DNA from: Halorussus marinus
GTDB taxonomy: Archaea > Halobacteriota > Halobacteria > Halobacteriales > Haladaptataceae
Direction of reading: 5' to 3'
Length of the DNA stretch: 64,000 nucleotides
Assembly (NCBI RefSeq): GCF_004765795.1
Contig: NZ_SBIV01000004.1
Coordinates: forward strand, 1-64,000
How positions within the stretch are numbered: position 1 is the first letter of the stretch; every line of letters begins with the position of its first letter. The notes under the pieces were generated by a model. It made no database searches. It was not told the origin of the DNA and worked only from the letters and a program-made list of their open reading frames with translations. The position numbers and the translations under genes were made by a program. Positions 33,756 to 35,486 of the stretch are shown here, in pieces.

Positions 33756-35486
33756 ATGCCGGGAAGAGAAATAAACGAGAATCGACGCGATTTCCTGATG
33801 AAAGCCGGCGCCGCGACCGGGATCGTGGGACTGACCTCGTTCGCGACCGCGGGCGGGGCGGGGGCACAGGAGACGACGACTCAGGACGGCGACGCCGAGA
33901 CGACACAGGCGGCCGAACCGGGCGAGCCGCTCCCGACGTACACGTATCTGAACAACGCACAGAGCTACAATCCGCCGCGACACGACGCGATCAACCTCAC
34001 CGCCAACCAGCTCAACGAGCTCGGACTCGACGTCGAGGTCGAGGTGCTCGAATGGGGGACGCTGTTCAACAGGGTCGACCAGGAGTACGACTACAGCCTC
34101 TCGACGTGGCACACGTTCTTCACGGTCGATCCGGTGCTGGAGCTGAGCTCGACCATGGACTCGTCGAACACCGACCCCGGGGAGGGGAATTTCGCCGGCT
34201 ACACCAACGAGGAGGTCGACGAGCTGATGGACAGCTACCTCGCCGAGCCCGACCCCGACACCCGGGTCGATCTGGTCCACGACCTCCAACAGATACTGAT
34301 GGACGAGGTGCCCCAGATGCCGATCACCCAGATGCCGGCGGCGGCCATCTGGAACAACAACCAGGTCGACAACTGGCAGCGCAACCTCTCGCTCGGGTTC
34401 AACTCCTACTGGACGATGGTCAACCTCGAGATGCAGGACGGGGCGACCGAGCTCAAGGGGTACTGGCCCGAGACGCTCTCGACGATGAACGTGCTGGGTC
34501 ACAACGACGAGAACAAGCACGTCTACCAGTTCACGGTGATGTACGACACGTTGTTGCGCCTCGACAACAACGGCGAGCTGAACTCCGACGTGAGCCTCGC
34601 GACCGACTGGAACCGGGTCGACGAGACCACCATGGAGTACACCGTCCGGACCGGCCACTCGTGGCACGACGGCGAGGACCTCACCGCCGAGGACATCGCG
34701 TTCAGCTACAACTACATCACCGAAAACGAGGTGCCGATCTACTCGGTCCAGTCGAACTACATCGACAACGCCGAGGTCGTCGACGAGGAGACGGTTCGGG
34801 TCAACATGAGCCAGCCCCTCGGACCGTTCAACACGCTCGTGGCGACCCAGCTCCCGATCATCCCCGAACACAAGTGGGCCGACCGGGACAACCCGAGCCA
34901 GCAGAACATCCAGGAGCCGGTCGGTAGCGGCCCGCTCCAGTTCGATTACTGGGAGCAGGGCAGTGAGTTCGGCATGGCGCGGTTCGACGACCACTTCGCG
35001 CCCGTCGACTTCGAGCGGCGGTTCTGGCGGATCATCCCGGAGGCCTCGACCGTCTGGGAGAACCTCATCAACGGCGACCTCAACTACGAGCCGTTCGGCC
35101 GGATCGACCGCAGTCTCAACGAGAACCAGGAGAACGAGAACATCAGCACGAAGTTCGAAGTGGCGACCTCGTTCTGGCACTTCACGCCGAACGAGCGCGA
35201 GCCCGGGTTCGACGACGTCGCCCTCCGGAAGGCGATGGTGAACACGATTCCGCGAACGCCGATCGTCGACCAGATCCTGTTCGGTTTCCCCGAGCCCGGT
35301 TCGAACGTCGTCTCGGGGGCGTTCGGCCCGCTCCACACCGACGACGTGACCTCCTACGAGGAGAGTCGCGAGCGAGCGCGGGCCCGGCTCGAAGAGGCCG
35401 GCTACACCTGGAACGACGACGACCGACTCCAGTTCCCCGAGGACGGCGGGGACGGGGGCGGCGGAACCACGACCGAGTCGGGCTGA
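33756..35486 (+). CDS. Circularly permuted peptide-type ABC substrate-binding protein
   Basis: The 576-residue protein starts with a Tat signal (NRRDFLMKAG, residues 9-18) and belongs to the SBP_bac_5 (oligopeptide/dipeptide) family, but its segments are in swapped order. Residues about 58-225 contain LNELGLDVEVEVLEWGTLF, FAGYTNEEVDELMDSYL and DPDTRVDLVHDLQQILMDE, normally near the C-terminus. Residues 255-560 contain YDTLLRLDNNGELN, VRTGHSWHDGEDLTAEDIAF and GSGPLQFDYW, normally near the N-terminus, and end in ARLEEAGYTWNDDDRLQF, which usually leads directly into the first block. No permease or ATPase gene is adjacent. No lipobox Cys follows the signal. A TATA-like AAATATT lies about 33 bases upstream. 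Confidence 0.82.
   Translation: MPGREINENRRDFLMKAGAATGIVGLTSFATAGGAGAQETTTQDGDAETTQAAEPGEPLPTYTYLNNAQSYNPPRHDAINLTANQLNELGLDVEVEVLEWGTLFNRVDQEYDYSLSTWHTFFTVDPVLELSSTMDSSNTDPGEGNFAGYTNEEVDELMDSYLAEPDPDTRVDLVHDLQQILMDEVPQMPITQMPAAAIWNNNQVDNWQRNLSLGFNSYWTMVNLEMQDGATELKGYWPETLSTMNVLGHNDENKHVYQFTVMYDTLLRLDNNGELNSDVSLATDWNRVDETTMEYTVRTGHSWHDGEDLTAEDIAFSYNYITENEVPIYSVQSNYIDNAEVVDEETVRVNMSQPLGPFNTLVATQLPIIPEHKWADRDNPSQQNIQEPVGSGPLQFDYWEQGSEFGMARFDDHFAPVDFERRFWRIIPEASTVWENLINGDLNYEPFGRIDRSLNENQENENISTKFEVATSFWHFTPNEREPGFDDVALRKAMVNTIPRTPIVDQILFGFPEPGSNVVSGAFGPLHTDDVTSYEESRERARARLEEAGYTWNDDDRLQFPEDGGDGGGGTTTESG

Follow-up and report, generated by a model that had tools for sequence, protein, structure and literature searches.

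Few circular permutations of proteins are natural, and most of these date from single old events. Engineered, circularly permuted periplasmic binding proteins serve as biosensors, and permuted flytraps can fold and bind. Among substrate-binding proteins (SBPs), natural circularly permuted forms have been described in TpMglB-2 (Tp0684) and its "Type Ic / Cluster Bc" relatives (PMC4990184). For the SBP_bac_5 family, no description of a permuted member was found in the openly accessible literature, with most subscription journals outside reach, and no PDB chain with a permuted SBP_bac_5 order was found. The initial annotation likewise knew of no description of such a permutation in this family; TpMglB-2 is a precedent in another SBP class. 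The gene analyzed here lies in a window comprising the first 64,000 nucleotides of a Halorussus marinus contig (NZ_SBIV01000004.1). It is an open frame with zero internal stops, and its product was confirmed to be a solute-binding protein of the SBP_bac_5 family that is complete but circularly permuted (Table 1).

Table 1. Features of the permuted SBP_bac_5 gene, in window coordinates
Feature	Position	Strand	Basis
Permuted SBP_bac_5 protein CDS, 576 aa + stop	33756..35486	+	Pfam, conventional-SBP profile, purifying selection
Tat-type leader, residues 1-39 (RRDFLMK...; ends GGAGAQE, lipobox cysteine absent)	33756..33872	+	Sequence; weak TAT and UCR_Fe-S_N matches
Thr/Gly/Glu-rich linker, residues 40-57; the lipobox-to-domain spacer of relatives lies at the same place	33873..33926	+	Alignment
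Normally C-terminal block, residues 58-202, profile positions about 376-516	33927..34361	+	Conventional-SBP profile
New linker from old C-terminus to old N-terminus, residues 203-229	34362..34442	+	Profile; junction common to 60 relatives
Normally N-terminal and middle block, residues 230-551, profile positions 56-375	34443..35408	+	Conventional-SBP profile
New C-terminus, equal to the cut site, residues 552-576 (WNDDDRLQFPEDGGDGGGGTTTESG)	35409..35483	+	Ends of relatives coincide

Gene neighbourhood and putative role

Of the 45 loci inspected, 43 carry an ABC ATPase gene, recognized by sequence motifs, no more than 6.5 kb downstream and on the same strand. Pfam identifies two BPD_transp_1 permeases and two oligo_HPY ATPases at locus L039, in the order permease-permease-ATPase-ATPase, and the same permease and ATPase domains at a Halomonas locus (L054); annotated records agree with this ABC-transporter gene context of permuted SBPs. 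The two loci lacking a downstream ATPase are L048 and L032, the latter being the locus in Halorussus amylolyticus of the window gene's closest orthologue (81%). Likewise, no ABC permease or ATPase genes were seen beside the window gene in the window, and the lipobox cysteine present in most haloarchaeal relatives (in many as LAGC) is absent from both the window protein and its L032 orthologue. The window genome and H. amylolyticus hence each harbor a solo permuted SBP without lipobox cysteine, unlike their operonic relatives, and the roles of both solo copies could differ from theirs as a result.

The window protein is very probably a functional, exported, circularly permuted SBP of cluster C (SBP_bac_5). 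It would fold as a normal two-lobed Venus flytrap, bind a peptide-like or other solute and hand this solute to a Dpp/Opp-type ABC importer. Since it has neither adjacent transporter genes nor a lipobox, the window copy would most likely be secreted or loosely held and supply a transporter encoded at another locus, possibly the one associated with the 72% paralogue on contig 5 (L197), a gene with two ABC ATPases downstream. The shared lack of transporter neighbors and lipobox in the window gene and the L032 orthologue also fits a non-transport role, in which this solo, non-lipidated paralogue would act as a secreted scavenger or partner a sensor instead of serving as an importer subunit; we consider this rather unlikely, given that close relatives (L014/L200, 74%; L030/L197, 72%) have ABC ATPases downstream and that SBPs serving transporters encoded elsewhere are common.

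Permease ORFs of 529-578 aa in the OppC position adjoin permuted SBPs (L054:10707-12443, L182:8625-10298 and L201:9440-11026), and in the L054 permease some 300 aa separate the N-terminal OppC_N domain from the transport domain. Long ATP-binding ORFs occur in bacterial permuted operons (L054:12329-14758; L182:10295-12598, about 767 aa), that of L054 being a single 809-aa frame with a pair of ABC_tran domains.

Block order and predicted fold

The window protein matches Pfam SBP_bac_5 (PF00496) with an E-value of 1.3e-53 and a score of 182.9 bits, well above the gathering cut-off of 32.4. Residues 281-557 of the window protein correspond to profile positions 6-285 and DNA 33942-34133 (about residues 63-126) to positions 289-353, the later part of the domain thus being encoded first. 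A phmmer search against PDB chains returned the same arrangement with AppA (1xoc), query residues 261-556 aligning with chain positions 51-350 and query residues 69-161 with positions 367-457. Against a 538-position reference profile derived from 31 conventional SBPs, the window protein in native order again aligned in two stretches, residues 73-202 with profile positions 389-516 (86.5 bits) and residues 230-551 with positions 56-375 (207.6 bits). The two stretches are complementary and do not overlap, with only about 13 positions of the cut loop left unaligned. The motifs quoted in the initial annotation, and the positions at which it placed both blocks, were correct, as was its expectation that joining the end of the chain to its start would recreate the usual order: with the halves swapped back, a single continuous alignment spanning profile positions 62-516 was obtained (297 bits), with no part duplicated. 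A conventional paralogue (L003) served as control; when cut artificially it yielded the two-piece pattern, and when left uncut it behaved like the rearranged window protein.

All parts of the SBP_bac_5 domain are hence present in the window protein and the canonical N-to-C order is absent; with the C-terminal block preceding the N-terminal block, the protein is a permuted variant and not an ordinary member of the family. The sequence comparisons show a complete domain with a single cut, in the loop after the LEEAGY helix, and old termini bridged by a short linker. As the initial annotation had noted, the Tat-type leader is retained ahead of the permuted domain. The leader of many relatives weakly matches the conventional leader (profile positions about 12-56) and likewise still stands in front, indicating that the permutation is confined to the mature domain.

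The AlphaFold2 model of window residues 50-576, computed with 60 permuted relatives, has a mean pLDDT of 92.6 and a pTM of 0.89, with disorder predicted from model residue 516 on (about residue 565). Foldseek comparison of this model with the PDB gave NikZ, AppA, NikA and DppA as top matches, with about 355 aligned columns and a TM-score of about 0.5. All listed matches are of SBP_bac_5 type and span about two thirds of the chain; both the partial coverage and the TM-score are in line with what a sequential aligner should yield on a permuted chain, and do not amount to proof of a swapped superposition. In conventional structures (OppA, DppA), the old termini presumably lie in lobe 1 and the loop cut here in lobe 2, so that the permutation would move the attachment point of the tether from one lobe to the other, a change that may be neutral in its consequences.

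The separate matching of the C- and N-terminal parts by Pfam and HMMER would also be expected if the two blocks came from different SBP genes or domains and represented fused halves instead of one permuted domain. This is very improbable, since the two stretches complement each other exactly, meet at the cut almost without a gap and together form a single collinear alignment, the model is predicted as one confident unit, and both halves of a permuted Asgard protein match one conventional orthologue (see below). The two blocks complement each other within a single domain, and the circular permutation of a single SBP_bac_5 domain proposed in the initial annotation was borne out by block order, collinearity, the exact cut, the fold prediction and conservation.

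Distribution and origins of the permuted order

Three of the 10 SBP_bac_5 genes in the window's own genome are permuted. Across the Halobacteria, at least 100 of 292 genomes harbor a match in permuted order (best match below about 1e-89), a lower bound because four candidates were scored per genome. Nearly all listed matches below about 1e-89 align over the full length of the permuted model; conventional proteins are matched in the second part of the model alone. Haloarchaeal carriers include Halorussus, Halogeometricum, Haloprofundus, Halorubrum, Halobellus, Haladaptatus, Haloarcula and Natrialba, so that the homologues sought in other haloarchaeal genomes do have the permuted order. The same order was identified in another family of the window's phylum (L167-L170), in Asgard archaea (L133, L134, L144-L148, L154 and others), in two Halomonas genomes and one Rhodobacteraceae bin, and in Nitratireductor OM-1, Neorhizobium galegae and plasmids of Maritalea and Roseomonas. 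One Azospirillum match (H33) had a permuted look in a BLAST listing, but its order proved conventional. In nearly all type-I sequences the cut falls in one shared loop, at profile positions about 375/376-391. An intact frame and the ratio obtained against the 81% orthologue (dN 0.125, dS 0.565, dN/dS about 0.22) indicate that the window gene is evolving under purifying selection; together with identical order and cut across scores of independent genomes, this leaves a negligible probability that a decaying gene or an assembly artefact scrambled the order in the window genome only, even though the gene is solo and has neither lipobox nor transporter neighbors.

Permuted proteins carry the plain annotation "ABC transporter substrate-binding protein". 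Permuted SBPs are broken into pieces or cut short by linear profile models and sequential aligners, and annotation and family counts consequently miss the permutation. On the matches assembled here, the permuted order is widespread and recurrent in SBP_bac_5, well beyond the window gene.

In a tree of 93 proteins inferred on profile coordinates, the window protein falls inside a clade of 24 permuted rows (SH-aLRT 96), and the remaining permuted proteins are placed outside it. The window protein was thus shown to belong to a supported clade of permuted SBPs, most members of which adjoin Dpp/Opp-type permease and ATPase genes. The clade combines haloarchaea with Halomonas, Neorhizobium, Roseomonas and Maritalea, a mixture that makes gene transfer between archaea and proteobacteria likely. 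A single origin of all type-I proteins was rejected, with forced grouping costing 493 lnL units (p-AU 4e-64) on a quick tree with long branches. In a small, careful Asgard tree, three changes of order (gains or reversals) are needed, each falling on a starred branch, and a single change does not suffice in any of 200 bootstrap trees. The trees thus indicate that the permutation arose more than once.

The strongest evidence for a real evolutionary change of order in an orthologous gene comes from an Asgard sequence pair, the permuted L146 and the conventional L149, whose two segments, aligning in swapped order, show identities of 65.6% (349 aa) and 52.6% (171 aa). Both carry a C-terminal membrane anchor in the same place (59% over 32 aa), and their flanking genes are syntenic, with one adjacent ORF at 76%, two further ORFs at about 60% and a permease at 53%. 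Such syntenic Asgard orthologues, permuted and conventional respectively and with the same C-terminal membrane anchor, lie at L201 (6575-8344) and L202 (774-2564).

A second cut site, at profile positions about 240-243, was identified in 17 Asgard sequences (members are L176, L177, L180, L181, L187-L188 and L190-L196), which run from profile positions about 240-520 to about 55-243 and continue into a membrane anchor or further domains; this second type is common in Asgard archaea. The 17 sequences form one clade in the 93-protein tree (SH-aLRT 97), and the AlphaFold2 model of this type has a pLDDT of 87.9 and a pTM of 0.83. Giant Asgard proteins combine SBP_bac_5 with a subtilase (Peptidase_S8) in L188:3-3935, L190:2-4720 and L189:2-6340, the SBP_bac_5 order being permuted in L188 and L190 and normal in L189; judging from their domain content, these are proteases fused to a peptide-binding protein.

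The permutation could have originated when a tandem duplicate fused in frame and then lost its outer halves. This route, proposed in the initial annotation, remains plausible, but no intermediate was found: no tandem fusions were seen in the long Asgard ORFs, each of which holds a single SBP domain, accompanied in two cases by a subtilase. One Asgard contig (L187) carries three permuted SBP genes in tandem, an arrangement that would favor duplication-fusion events. More broadly, permutation might be a recurrent, tolerated move in cluster C SBPs, with at least two cut sites and several independent events, one of them in situ in syntenic Asgard orthologues, and kept because the tether shifts from lobe 1 to lobe 2; we regard this account, taken as a whole, as possible but tentative.

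Comparison with known systems

One very common family here provides many genomes with permuted members, two cut sites and orthologues that differ in order at about 60% identity, making the mechanism, direction, tolerance and consequence of permutation directly testable. It constitutes a rare natural experiment in the re-cutting of proteins with folding retained, widespread in archaea and present in some bacteria, among them Halomonas and several Alphaproteobacteria. The window protein shares its domain and Pfam family with AppA, DppA, OppA, NikA and NikZ, and its relatives share their operon partners. Compared with these conventional cluster C SBPs, its blocks are swapped and its C-terminus falls within a loop that conventional proteins carry internally. 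Engineered permuted binding proteins are man-made, whereas the SBP_bac_5 permutation occurs in nature, has recurred and is ancient in one clade. TpMglB-2 is likewise a natural SBP permutation in which export and a probable ABC-import function are kept, but it differs from the window protein in having a Type I, cluster B glucose/galactose-binding fold and another cut site, and its group is found in treponemes and Gram-positive bacteria, with a permuted portion that is poorly conserved in sequence (PMC4990184). Membership of the window protein in Type Ic / Cluster Bc was rejected, as its sequence and fold matches are to SBP_bac_5, cluster C.
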